A stretch of 32,796 nt of DNA, from positions 1 to 32,796 of the forward strand of contig JAAXXT010000026.1 of the NCBI GenBank assembly GCA_013334325.1. The letters run 5' to 3'. Under the pieces are notes generated by a model. The model was given only the letters and a program-made list of their open reading frames with translations. It made no database searches and was not told the origin of the DNA. Below, in pieces: positions 26,532 to 32,796 of the stretch. Source of the DNA: Erysipelotrichaceae bacterium (GTDB lineage Bacteria > Bacillota_I > Bacilli_A > Erysipelotrichales > Erysipelotrichaceae). Made by a program: the position numbers and the translations under genes. How positions within the stretch are numbered: position 1 is the first letter of the stretch; every line of letters begins with the position of its first letter.

Positions 26532-28757
26532 CTATTTACCATCTGTTGCGAAGAGATTATAGAGATTAACAACGCTCTTGCGTTGATTTTCACTAATGAT
26601 CGCTAAGACTTCATCGGTATACTGAGCTTGTATTAAGAGATTACCTGACCCATTATTGAATACCAAGGAGATAAGCGGTGTTTCAGAGATACCTCTTTGA
26701 GTAATATAAGGTAAGATCTGAATCAACTGATCATCACTGAGGTTTACATAAGTATAGGTGTTAGGTTGAGATTCTTCATAGCTCGATTCTAAATCAAAGG
26801 TATATCGTTGAGAGGATTGAGGCATCGCAACTCTAAACATTGGGATGTCCACAATCGTTGCGGGAGAACTTTCCTCAGGAAGAATCAACACTGCAGATCT
26901 GAGGGCAGTTTCTGGGGCAGGATTCAAATTGACGCCTGTCGCAGTCAACACAGCGATCACATGGGTGAAACGTGTATCGACATCTATCACAGAGGTCATA
27001 CAATTTGAAGTCTTGAACTTACAGGTCGTTAGATTGAGATAACCCATTGCGGTGTAGTCGGTAGAGATCGCTTGCGCATCACTAAGCGCTGCGATATCCA
27101 TGAGATAAGCTGTCTTGAGCTCGGATAAATTAATTTTTAGTGGGGATATAGAAGCTTTTCCCACTGGGGTGACCCAATCAGCCATATTCACATTAGGATA
27201 CTCATCCATGTTGGCTAGATTAGGCGCATTGACTTCGATGATATCGGGTGTGTTGTTTAGGGTCAATAAGCTATTAGTCCATTGAAGAGGAACTGTATAG
27301 CTTCTTACCAGATCACCACCTGATTTTAGATGATAAGTAATCTTCACTTGAGCCGAGTTGATCGAATTGTTGATGAAGAAAGGTAAGGTCTCATAGGACT
27401 TCGTGTAACCTTTTTGCTCTTCGATCATAGTGACTAAGTTGTTGTTAAATGCGTAATTGTAATTATAGTCGATCCATTTGTATTCCGCGATGATGATGCG
27501 ATGCAACTCATAAACAGCTGAGATATCATCGGCTGTGGTCAAATGCAAGGAAGATGCTGGAACAGCCATCATGTCACGATAATAGCTAGGTGATGACATG
27601 ATGAAGTTAGAGTTATCATAATAGTCGAAATCGATTGATTCGATGTTAGATAAGCTTGGGATCCTAGAGGCATATCCAAAGCCCTTGCTCCATAAACCAC
27701 CGATCAATAGACTAAAGGCAACTGCTGCGATCACTAGATAATGAATGAAAGCTTTGGCGAGATGCTTGAAGCCTCTTTCTGCGATCGCATCCATGACCAG
27801 ATAGAGCACCATACTGAAGAAGATCGGGAAGATAAAATTGATAGGCGCATAGTACGAGGTATAGTAGAAAGAAGAATTCATACTGTAAATGACACAATAT
27901 AAGAAGATGATAAACAAGATGATTAGTAGACCACTTACGGTAGGGAAGAAGGTCTTATTGGTGAAAGGTTTCTCAGCTTTTTCAGATTTACGTCTGAGAT
28001 AGAACTGATTACTGATGGCGATGATGACACCAGATAGAACCAACCAATAGAGCCCATTCACATAACCACTGGCCCACATACGACCACTGATCTCAAAACC
28101 ACTCTCAAATAAGGCAAAGATAGGGAAGATGATCCCAACCCATTTGGTAAGATCTCCTATCGAGAAACCTAAGAGGATGGTTTGAACGAATAGGATATAG
28201 GCACCATAGGCTAAGATAGGTATAAAGTTAAGTGTCAATGAATACAAGAAAGCATCTAAAGAAGTCCCTGTATTCATCATCGTAAACAAGACCACACTTA
28301 AGATCGCAGTTGCGATCGAAATCAAGGCAAAGTATCTTTCGAAGATGACCAAGAAATTAAAGGATCCTGTCATCATCATCAATCCACCACTGAACCAACC
28401 GATCGTAAACGGAACAACCACGATCGCAATCGCTGCGATAAGCGAGGTAATAAACAGATCTGAACGTTTGATTGGTAAAGCGTGGTATACATCTAAGTTC
28501 TTCTTAGAATTCATATAGCTCATGATCTGTAAAGGAATCATGAAGGCAGTAAACATCAATAGACTTATGTTGAAGAATAGCCCTACTTCTCGTATCCCAT
28601 CATAACTGTCTGATCTAGATAAGATCTTAACGGTCAATCCTAAGACAGGATAAAGGGTCATCATCGCAATACTCATGATAAACATATAACGGGCATTGCG
28701 TTTTAATAAGAATCTTAGGTATTCTGTTTGAAGTCTCAGTTTAAACAAGTTGACCAT
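26532..28757 (-). CDS. ABC transporter permease with large C-terminal extracytoplasmic domain
   Basis: The membrane partner of the upstream ATPase, 741 residues from the chosen start. About ten hydrophobic segments fill residues 20-356. The VYHALPIKRSDLF loop is typical of YtrC/ABC-2 type permeases. The last roughly 380 residues contain no membrane segment, are beta-rich and should face outward; they include ATGVNLNPAPETALRSAVLILP. I do not recognise that domain. An in-frame ATG at 28784 exists, but GGAGG nine bases before 28757, inside the ATPase gene, favours the later start. The ATPase overlap is 17 bases. Substrate is unknown; cell-envelope stress or peptide antibiotic response is suggested only by the YtrA-type regulator. 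Confidence 0.8.
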   Translation of the reverse strand: MVNLFKLRLQTEYLRFLLKRNARYMFIMSIAMMTLYPVLGLTVKILSRSDSYDGIREVGLFFNISLLMFTAFMIPLQIMSYMNSKKNLDVYHALPIKRSDLFITSLIAAIAIVVVPFTIGWFSGGLMMMTGSFNFLVIFERYFALISIATAILSVVLFTMMNTGTSLDAFLYSLTLNFIPILAYGAYILFVQTILLGFSIGDLTKWVGIIFPIFALFESGFEISGRMWASGYVNGLYWLVLSGVIIAISNQFYLRRKSEKAEKPFTNKTFFPTVSGLLIILFIIFLYCVIYSMNSSFYYTSYYAPINFIFPIFFSMVLYLVMDAIAERGFKHLAKAFIHYLVIAAVAFSLLIGGLWSKGFGYASRIPSLSNIESIDFDYYDNSNFIMSSPSYYRDMMAVPASSLHLTTADDISAVYELHRIIIAEYKWIDYNYNYAFNNNLVTMIEEQKGYTKSYETLPFFINNSINSAQVKITYHLKSGGDLVRSYTVPLQWTNSLLTLNNTPDIIEVNAPNLANMDEYPNVNMADWVTPVGKASISPLKINLSELKTAYLMDIAALSDAQAISTDYTAMGYLNLTTCKFKTSNCMTSVIDVDTRFTHVIAVLTATGVNLNPAPETALRSAVLILPEESSPATIVDIPMFRVAMPQSSQRYTFDLESSYEESQPNTYTYVNLSDDQLIQILPYITQRGISETPLISLVFNNGSGNLLIQAQYTDEVLAIISENQRKSVVNLYNLFATDGK

Positions 28758-29631
28758 AACCTTTAGCCTCCATTTCATAGACAAAGACTTCTTCCATCGT
28801 TATTGGGATTTCTTCCAATAGGATCGGTTGAGTGCTTTCAATCAAGGTTCTGATTGCGCTGATGTCGCCTTTGGCGACCATCAGATAGACATGACCACGC
28901 TGTTCTAGATGAAGCGGTTTGAGTTCATTGAAGACGTCTCCTGCTTGTTCTTTAGAATAGCCGATCTGAAGTTTATGATAGTTACTACGAATGTTTTCTA
29001 CTTCGTCTTGAATAGAGATCGTATTGTGATCTAATAAAGCGATACTGTCACAAATGTCTTCTAGTTCTCTTAAGTTATGAGAAGAGATGACCACAGTGAT
29101 TTGACGATTCATCAACTCATCGGTGATCAAACGTTTAAACATCAATCTCATGACAGGATCTAAGCCATCAAAGGCTTCATCCAAGAGAAGGACTTCAGGA
29201 TCACAAGATAAGGCTAAGATAACACTGGCTTGACGCTTCATTCCCTTAGAGAAATCAGTGATCTTATCATTCTCATTGAGTTTAAAATGATTCAAGAGTT
29301 TCTGATACATTGCTTCATTGAAGGTCGAATAGAAGATCTGATAGAATTTCTTCATTTCTTTTAAACTGGACTGAGTCAAGAAGAAAGGATCATCAGGCAC
29401 AAACATGATCTTCTTTTTAGCTGAAGGATTGTCATAAATGATTGCGCCTTCTAAAGTGATCTGTCCTGCATCTGGGCTTAATACTCCACTCATTAAACGT
29501 AAAAGGGTGCTTTTACCGGCACCATTGGGTCCTACTAGGCCATAGATGGAGCCTTTAGGAATATCCCAATTGATGTTTTCAAGGACCAGTTTATTGTCAA
29601 AGGATTTTTTAATGTTCTTTAAGGCAATCAT
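28741..29631 (-). CDS. ABC transporter ATP-binding protein (YtrB-like)
   Basis: The ATPase of the GntR-controlled ABC transporter, 296 residues. It shows Walker A GPNGAGKST, the Q-loop replaced by a VPDDP segment common in this subgroup, signature FSKGMKRQ, Walker B VLLLDEAFDGLDP and the switch SSHNLRELE. A C-terminal extension of about 80 residues (LQIGYSKEQ to GYGQLV) is typical of drug- and antibiotic-exporting ATPases. ATGA overlaps couple it to the GntR gene upstream, and its 3' end contains the ribosome site and start of the permease. Confidence 0.92.
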   Translation of the reverse strand: MIALKNIKKSFDNKLVLENINWDIPKGSIYGLVGPNGAGKSTLLRLMSGVLSPDAGQITLEGAIIYDNPSAKKKIMFVPDDPFFLTQSSLKEMKKFYQIFYSTFNEAMYQKLLNHFKLNENDKITDFSKGMKRQASVILALSCDPEVLLLDEAFDGLDPVMRLMFKRLITDELMNRQITVVISSHNLRELEDICDSIALLDHNTISIQDEVENIRSNYHKLQIGYSKEQAGDVFNELKPLHLEQRGHVYLMVAKGDISAIRTLIESTQPILLEEIPITMEEVFVYEMEAKGYGQLV

Positions 29632-29999
29632 TGTCTTTTCTCCTTGTAGATGCTGCTGACCAACTCGATCATGGTTTTTTCCGTGACCCCGAAATGTTTC
29701 ACATATTCGATGGTCTTACGGATCTCGCTGAGCTTTGAAGCTGTCAGTTCACTATGGTCTTTAGGTGTTGTAGATACATAATACCCTTTTCCAGTCAGAG
29801 AATAAACAAAACCATCTCTTTCTAGTTCGGTATACGCTTTTACGACGGTGTTGGGATTGATTCCCAAGTCTTTGGCCATCGTACGTATTCCGGGTAATGG
29901 ATCATCATGAACCATAATCCCACTGGCGATCTGAGCGAGGACCTGTTCGATGATCTGCTGATAGATGGGTGTACTACTTTGTCCGTTTACAACAATCAT
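29628..29999 (-). CDS. GntR family regulator, YtrA subfamily
   Basis: A short (123 aa) repressor with an N-terminal winged helix and a small C-terminal dimerisation segment, the hallmark of the YtrA subfamily, whose members control adjacent ABC transporter genes. The winged helix shows PIYQQIIEQVLAQIASG, PGIRTMAKDLGINPNTVVKA and YTELERDGFVYSLTGKGYYV. It starts after AAGGAGG and is first in the operon with the ATPase and permease. It likely binds the palindrome in its own promoter. The inducer is unknown; in Bacillus YtrA responds to cell-wall-active antibiotics. Confidence 0.92.
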   Translation of the reverse strand: MIVVNGQSSTPIYQQIIEQVLAQIASGIMVHDDPLPGIRTMAKDLGINPNTVVKAYTELERDGFVYSLTGKGYYVSTTPKDHSELTASKLSEIRKTIEYVKHFGVTEKTMIELVSSIYKEKRQ

Positions 30000-30020: not shown

Positions 30021-30060
30021 ACTGTATTATTATAGTAATACAGTTGAGTCAAAATGTCAA
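30021..30060 (-). promoter_or_regulatory. Promoter and operator of the GntR-ABC operon
   Basis: ACTGTATTA (30021-30029) and TAATACAGT (30036-30044) are perfect inverted arms around six bases. Minus-strand TTGACA (30060-30055) and TACTAT (30037-30032) with a 17-base spacer give a promoter whose -10 lies inside the palindrome. Autorepression by the GntR protein is the obvious reading. Confidence 0.72.
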
Positions 30061-30073
30061 ATAGAGCGCTTAT

Positions 30074-30116
30074 TCAACCTTGAGTTGAGTGACAAGTGCT
30101 TAAACTATGGGATAAT
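30074..30116 (+). promoter_or_regulatory. Operator-like inverted repeat and promoter of first XRE gene
   Basis: TCAACC-TTG-AGTTGA (30074-30088, one mismatch in the arms) directly precedes a -35-like GTGACA (30089-30094), 16 bases and GATAAT (30111-30116). The predicted start near 30123 leaves a leader of about 16 bases. The same layout with the same spacings recurs at 31752-31794 before the paralogue. Confidence 0.65.
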
Positions 30117-30138
30117 AGAGACGTTAAGGGAAGAAGAT

Positions 30139-31551
30139 ATGAAACAAAACAAGGTGGGGCTCTTTATCCTAGAGCGACGTAAACATCATTCAATGACACA
30201 AAGCGATCTGGCCAGAGCACTGCATGTCAGCGATCAAGCCGTTTCTAAATGGGAACGTGGTTTAAACTACCCTGACATCAATTTGATTGCGCCTTTAGCG
30301 GATCTTTTAAAAGTAAGTATCAATGAATTACTTCAAGGAGAACTCAGTGTGAGTGACATCAAAACAGAAGACGCTGTAAAAGAAGTTTTAGACTTTTCTT
30401 CAACGGTCATAAAAAAGAAAAGTAAACGTTTCTCAAAAGAGATCATGTTGCTTAGATTGGTGATCGCTTTATTGGTGGCAGGAGCTGGATCGCTTTATTT
30501 CGATAATCAACATCCTGCCTATACCTTAATTCCAATGACAGACACTAATCTAGAACTCTTTGAGAATGAGTATAAGGATATGGAATTCTTATCCTCTTGG
30601 CAAGGTTGTGGAGAAACAGGCGGACAAGTTTATACGATCTATAGACAAAGTATCTTTGGGATAGGGACAGACATTGAAGGAATTGCTTATAAATATGAGC
30701 CTGAAACAAATAACTCCAGTATCTTTTGTCCAATGACCTTAGAGATCAATACCCAAAACAAAAATCTATTGAATGGGATGAGTGCTTATTCAACAGGAAC
30801 CAATCTATTAAGTGGGACATTAGAAGTTGCGGTGATGATGGATAATGTGCCTAAGGTTACGTATACGATCTATGATCACAGTAAAGGATCAGATGATCAA
30901 AATGTACAATTGATGACTCGTTTTACGATAGAGATCTGGGGCTTTACGATCAATGGGAGCACCCAAGCGATAAATGTAGCGTCTCCTAAAGAGGGTAGTT
31001 CAAAAAGACTCGTTCCTGAATCTTATCTCAACGAAATCAAAACCCAATTGACTTCCTTAGTTCAAGCCATTAGTTTCTCTCAAGTCATATCGCGCGATCT
31101 CGATAACTTAACGACTCGTTTCTATCGTGGTTATCGTGAATTCTCGGGCGGTGAATATGGGTTCATTGAAAGAAGAGGCACTGTATTAGTCGATGGGGAG
31201 TGGATGATCACCCAGACTTTCTCTTCACCCAATACGATCGCGACCTTTACTTATGATCAATATGGGAGAAGGTTCTCAGTCGATATCGAAAGAGAACCAA
31301 GCTCATCAGAAATACATGGGATCTTTCAAGTCATAGAAGTAGTGGTTTTCAATCGAGTTCAATGGTATTCCAGTAGTGGGGCAGATCAATGGGTCTTCCC
31401 ATCAGGGTATTGGGATGACATAAGTTATCGTTATACTGAAGTATCTACACCATGGTTGATCGATCTCATAGGCAGTGATATGACCATCATGTGTATTGAA
31501 CAATACACTCATTATCGTATCCAATGGCCTAAGCTAGGCATCATCTCTTAA
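30139..31551 (+). CDS. Membrane-anchored XRE-family regulator, copy 1
   Basis: A 470-residue protein joining a cytoplasmic DNA-binding domain to an outer sensor-like domain. Residues 4-66 form an XRE/Cro helix-turn-helix (MTQSDLARALHVSDQAVSKW, then ERGLNYPDI). A charged linker (70-101) contains TEDAVKEVLDFSS. One membrane helix follows at about 102-121 (IMLLRLVIALLVAGAGSLYF). Residues 122-470 should lie outside and are beta-rich with no recognised motif. Cys157 and Cys197 align with two cysteines of the paralogue and could form a disulfide. An upstream in-frame ATG at 29965 lies across promoters and is rejected; 30139 follows AAGGGAAG. It resembles one-component membrane regulators in layout. 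Ligand and targets are unknown. Confidence 0.82.
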   Translation: MKQNKVGLFILERRKHHSMTQSDLARALHVSDQAVSKWERGLNYPDINLIAPLADLLKVSINELLQGELSVSDIKTEDAVKEVLDFSSTVIKKKSKRFSKEIMLLRLVIALLVAGAGSLYFDNQHPAYTLIPMTDTNLELFENEYKDMEFLSSWQGCGETGGQVYTIYRQSIFGIGTDIEGIAYKYEPETNNSSIFCPMTLEINTQNKNLLNGMSAYSTGTNLLSGTLEVAVMMDNVPKVTYTIYDHSKGSDDQNVQLMTRFTIEIWGFTINGSTQAINVASPKEGSSKRLVPESYLNEIKTQLTSLVQAISFSQVISRDLDNLTTRFYRGYREFSGGEYGFIERRGTVLVDGEWMITQTFSSPNTIATFTYDQYGRRFSVDIEREPSSSEIHGIFQVIEVVVFNRVQWYSSSGADQWVFPSGYWDDISYRYTEVSTPWLIDLIGSDMTIMCIEQYTHYRIQWPKLGIIS

Positions 31552-31583
31552 GAAAACTTCGACCCTTTCGAAGTTTTCTTTTG
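31551..31583 (+). terminator. Terminator after first XRE gene
   Basis: AGAAAACTTCGA (31551-31562) pairs perfectly with TCGAAGTTTTCT (31568-31579) around a five-base loop, followed by TTT. It separates the two paralogues into independent units. Confidence 0.85.
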
Positions 31584-31751
31584 TTTAAACGACTCCCTTC
31601 ATAGAAAGGTTTACAATAGGACTTAAGGAAAATAAAATTACCTATAGACTTCAAAAAGAAGTTTGTCAGATCTGTAGTGAAAAAATCCTTAAGACTAGAA
31701 ATGAGACTGGAAACTAAGTATTAGTAATAAAACAATCCTTTGTTTAGTGAT

Positions 31752-31794
31752 ACAACCTTGGGTTGTGTGACATTAAATAACGCTATGACATAAT
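31752..31794 (+). promoter_or_regulatory. Operator-like inverted repeat and promoter of second XRE gene
   Basis: ACAACC-TTG-GGTTGT (31752-31766) is a perfect inverted repeat directly before GTGACA (31767-31772), 16 bases and CATAAT (31789-31794). The predicted leader is about 15 bases. Arrangement and sequence match the first XRE promoter. Confidence 0.65.
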
Positions 31795-31815: not shown

Positions 31816-32796
31816 ATGGATCAAATCAAGGTTGGGGTGTTTATCTCACAACAGAGAAAAAAACAACAGATAACACAAAGCGAATTGGCCAATGCTTTGT
31901 TTGTCAGTGAACAAGCTGTTTCTAAATGGGAACGTGGCTTAAACTATCCAGATATTGCACTACTGTTTCGTTTGGCAGACCTTTTGAAGGTTTCAGTCAG
32001 TGAAATACTTCAAGGAGAACTCAGTGTGTCAGAGATCAAAACAGAAGAAGCAGTTAAAGAAGTTCTAGAGTATTCGTCAACCCTTATCAATAGAGAGAAG
32101 AAAAGCTTCTCAAAAAGAATTATGATTCTTAGATTGGTGATTGTTTTGATTATTGCAGGATTTATCAATTTTTATTTTCAAGTTCGGTCTCCTCAAATTT
32201 CTATGTCTCCATTTACCTCATCAGATACATTATGGCTCAACTATCAATTCAGAGATGTCCAACTCTTATCGACATGGGACTATTGTGGAAACATCAACGA
32301 TATACAGTTGTTTGCGATTTCGCAAAAATCGTTTTTTGAAGATAAGTCAAAAGTGGGCTATGCGATCAAGTTTCCTACTAGACTCGATGCTTCTATAGAA
32401 AAATCGATGGTTTGTCCTGCTTTAGTAGAAGTCAATCTTTCAAACAGCAACACTCTTGATTCCCTTTCCGTTAATAAAGGAGGGAAAGCGCTGTGGACCA
32501 GTCAGCGACAAGTGAAGCAGACTGAGACCACCCCTATCTTAAGCAGTACGATCGATGGATCATCTTTAGTGATCGATTATACGATTTACAATAAGAGCAC
32601 AAATGATACCCAGCTAGAATTGTATACACGATTCTCTATGACGGTTTCAGGTTATACCATCAACGGGAGCACAGCTTTAACTACGATTGAACTCAACAAA
32701 GACTTAGTTATAGTTAATCAGATCCCTAAAACATATCTGGATGCCTTGGAGAAAGGTTTATTAAGTTTTATATTGAAAGTAGAAGACAGTCAGAAG
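31816..32796 (+). CDS. Membrane-anchored XRE-family regulator, copy 2, 3'-truncated by window
   Basis: The reading frame from ATG 31816 (after AGAGGACAG) stays open for 327 codons to the window end, so the gene is incomplete here rather than broken. It is a paralogue of the preceding gene over its whole visible length: XRE helix-turn-helix (SELANALFVSEQAVSKWERG, 22-41), the TEEAVKEVLEYSS linker, a membrane helix (about 102-121, IMILRLVIVLIIAGFINFYF) and an outer domain with the shared STWDYCGN and VCPALVEV segments. Cys157 and Cys200 match the cysteines of copy 1. DNA-binding helices are nearly identical while the outer domains have diverged, which suggests the same operator but a different signal. 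Confidence 0.82.
   Translation, partial: MDQIKVGVFISQQRKKQQITQSELANALFVSEQAVSKWERGLNYPDIALLFRLADLLKVSVSEILQGELSVSEIKTEEAVKEVLEYSSTLINREKKSFSKRIMILRLVIVLIIAGFINFYFQVRSPQISMSPFTSSDTLWLNYQFRDVQLLSTWDYCGNINDIQLFAISQKSFFEDKSKVGYAIKFPTRLDASIEKSMVCPALVEVNLSNSNTLDSLSVNKGGKALWTSQRQVKQTETTPILSSTIDGSSLVIDYTIYNKSTNDTQLELYTRFSMTVSGYTINGSTALTTIELNKDLVIVNQIPKTYLDALEKGLLSFILKVEDSQK

Follow-up and report, generated by a model that had tools for sequence, protein, structure and literature searches.

Twin inverted repeats as probable shared self-operators of two membrane-anchored XRE paralogues

Two adjacent genes in the window (the whole stretch of DNA that was analysed, 32,796 nucleotides) encode paralogous XRE regulators, XRE1 and XRE2, and at each of their promoters an inverted repeat touches the -35 hexamer (Table 1). 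Sequence comparison makes it probable (roughly 0.75) that these repeats are the self-operators of the two proteins, which would be membrane-anchored regulators joined in one cross-coupled autoregulatory loop, repression being the likelier sign. Three observations lead to this reading: (i) the exact motif is found only at these two promoters and has been kept there even though the upstream flanks match at just 17 of 60 positions and the proteins are only 43% identical; (ii) the layout recurs in homologues, in which the operator co-varies with the recognition helix; and (iii) a third XRE gene of the genome, also with Gln33, has ACAACC-ATA-GGTTGT upstream.

Table 1. Features of the twin XRE region, in window coordinates
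Feature	Position	Strand	Remarks
GntR-family regulator	29628..29999	-	Pfam GntR 44.8 bits (cut-off 27); heads divergent ABC-transporter operon
Palindrome CTGTATTATTATAGTAATACAG = CTGTATTA-N6-TAATACAG	30022..30043	.	perfect 8-base arms; over -10 region of GntR gene
Operator 1 TCAACCTTGAGTTGA = TCAACC TTG AGTTGA	30074-30088	+	abuts -35 of XRE1; same in 96%-identical G001 orthologue
-35 GTGACA of XRE1	30089-30094	+	promoter scan
-10 GATAAT of XRE1	30111-30116	+	preceded by extended -10 (TGG)
XRE1	30139..31551	+	start codon ATG 30139; 470 aa; HTH_3 11-64, predicted membrane helix 102-120, long C-terminal domain
Terminator-like hairpin + T's, after XRE1	31550..31580	+	weak: 1 found vs 1.2 +/- 1.3 in shuffles
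Operator 2 ACAACCTTGGGTTGT = ACAACC TTG GGTTGT	31752-31766	+	abuts -35 of XRE2
-35 GTGACA of XRE2	31767-31772	+	promoter scan
-10 CATAAT of XRE2	31789-31794	+	preceded by extended -10 (TGA)
XRE2	31816..32796	+	start codon ATG 31816; cut by contig end; HTH_3 11-64, predicted membrane helix 102-120

The first-pass annotation had described a repeat abutting GTGACA, then 16 bases, then NATAAT, at both 30074-30116 and 31752-31794; letter for letter, this is what both places hold. The arms of operator 2 comprise six bases around TTG, while those of operator 1 are perfect over five, the sixth pair (C with A) being mismatched. When one copy is laid against the other, with a chance identity of 0.27 expected from composition, 12 of 15 operator bases, all 6 of the -35 and 5 of 6 of the -10 agree, as against 17/60 in the upstream flank, 7/16 in the spacer and 10/21 in the leader. 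The earlier description of the spacers as dissimilar needs one correction: both spacers end in CTATGn, the TG of an extended -10, which the promoter scan picks up as well. Promoter consensus alone is non-significant in this region (8 found vs 6.7 +/- 2.4 in shuffles); each XRE promoter matches 10 of 12 consensus bases and has the extended -10 besides. The genes are tandem paralogues, and the repeats might be a functionless relic of the duplication, alike by recent descent; this is highly unlikely, given that flanks and proteins have diverged while operator and hexamers were kept, and that distant homologues have the same layout. The paralogues could nevertheless owe part of the shared site to descent.

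What, then, is common to the two proteins? Both score well above the HTH_3 (PF01381) cut-off of 23 in Pfam (46.3 and 46.0 bits), both have the membrane helix in the same chain as the HTH (a prediction from hydropathy only), and neither C-terminal domain has a Pfam match. Overall identity is 43-44%, rising to 71% over the 80 residues of the HTH regions. The recognition helices had been called nearly identical, and so they are: segment 31-47 reads SDQAVSKWERGLNYPDI in one and SEQAVSKWERGLNYPDI in the other, 16 of 17 residues agreeing and D32/E32 being the single difference, and the key residues Gln33, Arg40 and Asn43 are common to both. The terminator-like hairpin after XRE1 points to XRE2 being transcribed probably from its own promoter; XRE2 continues on contig C40, whose start overlaps the contig end (32670-32796) by 127 bases. 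In G001, of the same genus, an XRE1 orthologue 96% identical has an identical operator and no adjoining XRE2. In a congener, G002 (L067, 3654-4715), the counterpart of the XRE1 C-terminal domain is a separate 353-aa membrane protein without an HTH (32% identity), adjoined by an IS110-like transposase (by eye). Two outer-domain cysteines are kept in both twins (C157 and C197 in XRE1, C157 and C200 in XRE2) and are absent from the G002 protein; this pattern is as expected of a disulfide pair. The AlphaFold model of XRE1 (pLDDT 51) is too poor for use.

A palindrome of this kind could be common in the genome, and the first-pass annotation had held that occurrence at background frequency would speak against an operator. 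The 13-mer CAACCTTGRGTTG occurs exactly only at the two XRE promoters in 1,947,046 bases (1.95 Mb), so that the strict motif withstands this objection. One mismatch adds five sites, all inside ORFs, one of them at 31822, the start of XRE2, and the others at L003, L004, L005 and L007; the reversed pattern, as a control, gives 3 matches genome-wide with up to one mismatch. The looser motif CAACCNNNRGTTG is near background (11 strand matches, or 8 sites counted one per place, vs 8 for the control), and three of its eight sites are intergenic (XRE1, XRE2 and contig C38), each upstream of an XRE gene with Gln33, the rest lying inside ORFs. The enrichment that had been anticipated at related genes thus exists for XRE genes only, and the idea of a wider regulon was rejected, the strict motif having two sites and the loose one being close to background. 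At the C38 site (L069, 4539-4574) the palindrome ATATACAACC-TAT-GGTTGTATAT lies between the third XRE gene, whose recognition segment reads SFSQQTIHKWETG, and an ORF of 124 aa that diverges from it, and is shared by the two; on the side of this ORF it fills the 17-base spacer of TTGATA..TATAAT, and the ATG lies at about the inferred start.

The layout extends beyond this genome. The training set consisted of 106 homologous XRE genes (XRE1 and XRE2 excluded), 27 from the same family or order and 79 from named genomes, which by their titles are mostly Lachnospiraceae, Oscillospiraceae and other Bacillota. Within 120 bases upstream, CWACCN3RGTNG is found in 27 of the 106, where 0.18 would be expected from its frequency elsewhere in these loci, an enrichment that is descriptive since the motif was picked after part of the data was known. 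Distance to the -10 gives a second measure: in the 114 training and test genes that match a wider 13-mer pattern (XRE1 and XRE2 included, each at 23), a good -10 starts 23-25 bases past the 13-mer in 53, against about 4 in all, or about 1.4 per position, in shuffles; the later, third set gives 7/17 against 0.6. Operators that touch the -35 are thus common in the group and no peculiarity of the window. In the -35 elements of the homologues, conservation is concentrated in the first three bases. Of the 101 training homologues whose ORF is closed, 86 have a predicted membrane helix after residue 75. A scan of viral contigs gave 10 relatives.

The sets were assembled as follows. For the test set, 100 places were taken from the longer list of homologue places without a locus; for the third, 60 places were taken from the longer list, skipping those taken for training loci. 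Rows were dropped for L037 and L038 (an orthologue and a protein without HTH), L146 and L233 (upstream DNA absent) and 25 third-set duplicates, and the helix could not be read by pattern in 2, 7 and 1 proteins of the three sets. The helix is readable in 260 homologues, of which 127 match the 13-mer in the upstream stretch searched and 133 do not, many of the latter showing, by eye, other upstream motifs. Some helix classes appear, again by eye, with motifs of their own: ..RWENGNYMP with ATTCGCTATTTGTGGGGTGT, ..RWENGKTMP with CTCAGTTTCTGTCC and ..RWENGYNMP with TTCTCGCTTTATGTCAT; the loci of such non-13-mer classes include L198, L202, L203, L209, L215, L220, L228, L237, L238, L243 and L274.

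If each regulator reads its own operator, which residue does the reading? The HTH aligns without gaps to the P22 c2 repressor (E 2.4e-5) and is thus of the cI/c2 type. Residue numbers follow XRE1 and, by this alignment, also P22 c2; residue-base rules were fixed in writing ahead of each new set. We lean, with some reserve, towards the view that XRE1 and XRE2 are part of a large, mostly membrane-anchored set of Bacillota XREs whose self-operators keep a constant spacing to the core promoter, and that residue 43, immediately beyond the recognition helix, would switch the inner operator pair between two states: ACG-N3-CGT with Gly43, ACY-N3-RGT with Ser43 (or Ala43). The rule, worded for Gly43 and Ser43, fits 13/17 Gly43 and 43/45 Ser43 rows of the training set, no Ser43 row there having GC; 10/13 and 14/16 in the test set (99 loci, 34 with readable helix and operator match); and 5/7 and 7/9 in the third (65 loci, 17 with both), where one Ser43 row has GC. 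An earlier wording for Ser43, with inner C..G only, failed in the test set, where it fitted just 2/16; Y..R took its place ahead of the third set. In the pooled non-redundant rows, Gly43 comes with GC in 26, YR in 3 and other pairs in 6, and Ser43 or Ala43 with YR in 67, GC in 1 and others in 5.

Could this merely mirror kinship? When each Gly43 protein was matched with the nearest Ser/Ala43 protein by the rest of the HTH region, 27 of the 31 pairs differed in the expected direction, none against it and 4 not at all. Residue 43 is the best of 67 positions scanned for the inner pair, at 0.59 bits, with 0.14 for the next. A class-free partial Mantel test finds that upstream regions track helix identity at fixed flank identity (r 0.146, 0/500 permutations); the tree of these short domains gives just two supported independent pairs. 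The same comparison bears on whether some other regulator, rather than the XREs, binds the operators and controls both XRE genes. Palindromes upstream of XRE genes can belong to another regulator, a caveat raised in the discussion of PMC12565409; such an arrangement is quite unlikely for the twins, since the operator co-varies with the helix of the adjacent downstream gene when relatedness elsewhere in the domain is matched. The comparison thus gives strong though indirect support to the self- and cross-regulation that had been proposed for the twins: in homologous XRE genes an inverted repeat recurs at the same distance from the gene's own -10, and its sequence follows the recognition helix.

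The twins themselves have Asn43, which is rare in the homologue set. At base z of the right half-site, Arg33 goes with T (13/15), Lys33 with Arg40 goes with C (51/72) and Lys33 with Thr40 goes with A or G (23/23); the top predictor of z is position 54, so the 33/40 rule may reflect relatedness. CAACN5GTTG is found with 4 of 27 Gln33 proteins and 6 of 233 others (p 0.013), an association too weak for GTTG to be predicted from Gln33 in general; in the four Gln33 cases the site is at -94 to -115 relative to the start codon, further upstream than the neighbourhood of -65, and in two Gln33 proteins GTCG takes the place of GTTG. That Gln33 might specify GTTG is weakly suggested by the twins, the G001 orthologue, the C38 gene and this general enrichment. 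Among 395 genomes at class level and 392 at phylum level, none beyond G000 and G454 matched [DE]QA[VI]SKWE, and the G454 gene has, by eye, no CAAC/GTTG pair in the 120 bases before its likely start (1404).

How might the loop work? An HTH dimer would bind CAACC-N3-RGTTG and so touch the -35 hexamer, the operator centre lying in both copies at about -42 of the inferred transcription start, which was assumed to be 7-8 bases after the -10. Since recognition helix and operator are shared between the paralogues, either protein should be able to bind at both promoters, making a single loop; the twin sites most likely serve each regulator's control of itself and of its twin. A dimer placed there would hinder sigma at the -35, giving autorepression, and the C-terminal domain beyond the membrane would presumably set occupancy in response to an outside signal. 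A centre near -42 allows both autorepression and activation of the lambda cI type. Lambda cI activates its own promoter PRM from OR2, and controller proteins of restriction-modification systems combine activation and repression at different levels. The twins might likewise contact sigma region 4 from near -42 and autoregulate positively, or activate and repress at different levels; the shared position of the centre and the homologues' -35 elements, conserved mainly at their first three bases, would both suit this. Such a possibility deserves to be kept in mind but is the less likely one: with 10/12 consensus bases and an extended -10, both promoters look active unaided, and the positions that would align with the acidic patch of lambda are S22 and R26 in XRE1, neither of them acidic. 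Repression is preferred here because of the apparent strength of the two promoters.

Relatives of this arrangement are known. Controller (C) proteins of restriction-modification systems are small XRE proteins that act on operators at their own promoters, and the twins would resemble them in having XRE domains and operators at their own promoters; unlike in those systems, no restriction or methylase gene was seen by eye among the ORFs of the window. Scores for RstR (39.2 and 47.0 bits, cut-off 80) and DicA (35.5 and 39.4 bits, cut-off 101) in NCBIfam are below threshold. Unlike P22 c2 or the 933W repressor, the XREs have one operator per promoter and a membrane helix, with no phage context noticed, and the LexA-like C-terminal peptidase/dimerisation domain of the lambdoid type has no Pfam match in XRE1 or XRE2. 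In the 933W repressor, base preferences are set by K42, a lysine of the recognition helix, and by E51, which lies a little beyond that helix (PMC3317979); by our own counting their counterparts in the XREs are at about 33 and 42, close to the positions 33 and 43 that matter in this set. Transmembrane transcription regulators, described as widespread (PMC10269533), likewise combine a DNA-binding domain and a membrane segment in one chain, the membrane location being a prediction in our case; XRE goes unmentioned in that text.

The nearest precedent is a 2025 study (PMC12565409) in which palindromic motifs upstream of XRE genes fell into 223 clusters, and binding was seen for 9 of the 10 pairs tested. 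These clusters make XRE self-operators an already known kind, and the twin operator may itself be among them. The likeness lies in an XRE HTH protein with a palindrome in the promoter of its own gene and presumed dimer binding; the differences are the residue-to-base rule, the fixed -35 geometry and the twin genes found here, none of which was noticed in the text consulted, where the words 'residue', 'specificity', 'sigma' and 'membrane' are absent. A residue-to-base rule (residue 43) with fixed geometry for this XRE group was not found in the open-licence literature searched. Palindromes at XRE genes being known, what would be new is this twin pair as XREs with autoregulatory palindromes, the residue-43 rule and the fixed promoter geometry.

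Why does this matter? Regulators of this sort abound in Bacillota and, to judge from the literature searched, have been little studied. If one or two residues, together with a constant position in the promoter, suffice to predict an operator, then autoregulation and the cross-talk of paralogues within a genome can be predicted as well, and tested at low cost; should the residue-43 switch be true, the operators of many unstudied regulators, and their obligate paralogue cross-talk, could be read from protein sequence. For the twins, this would explain why two sensors can remain coupled in a single loop although their outer domains have diverged. The residue-43 rule with its fixed promoter geometry is the part most worth following up on.

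Operator 1 also has a neighbour on its other side, the divergent GntR gene with its promoter TTGACA-17-TACTAT (30032-30060, minus strand). Lying upstream of this promoter, some 56 bases before its inferred start, the operator might mainly serve the GntR-ABC operon and so link regulator to transporter; this is unlikely, as no divergent gene lies beside the XRE2 copy and the GntR gene has a palindrome of its own (30022-30043), which is probably the GntR operator and separate from that of the XREs. Downstream of the ABC ATPase, a 750-aa ORF (26532-28784, minus strand) with no Pfam or NCBIfam match is probably the permease.
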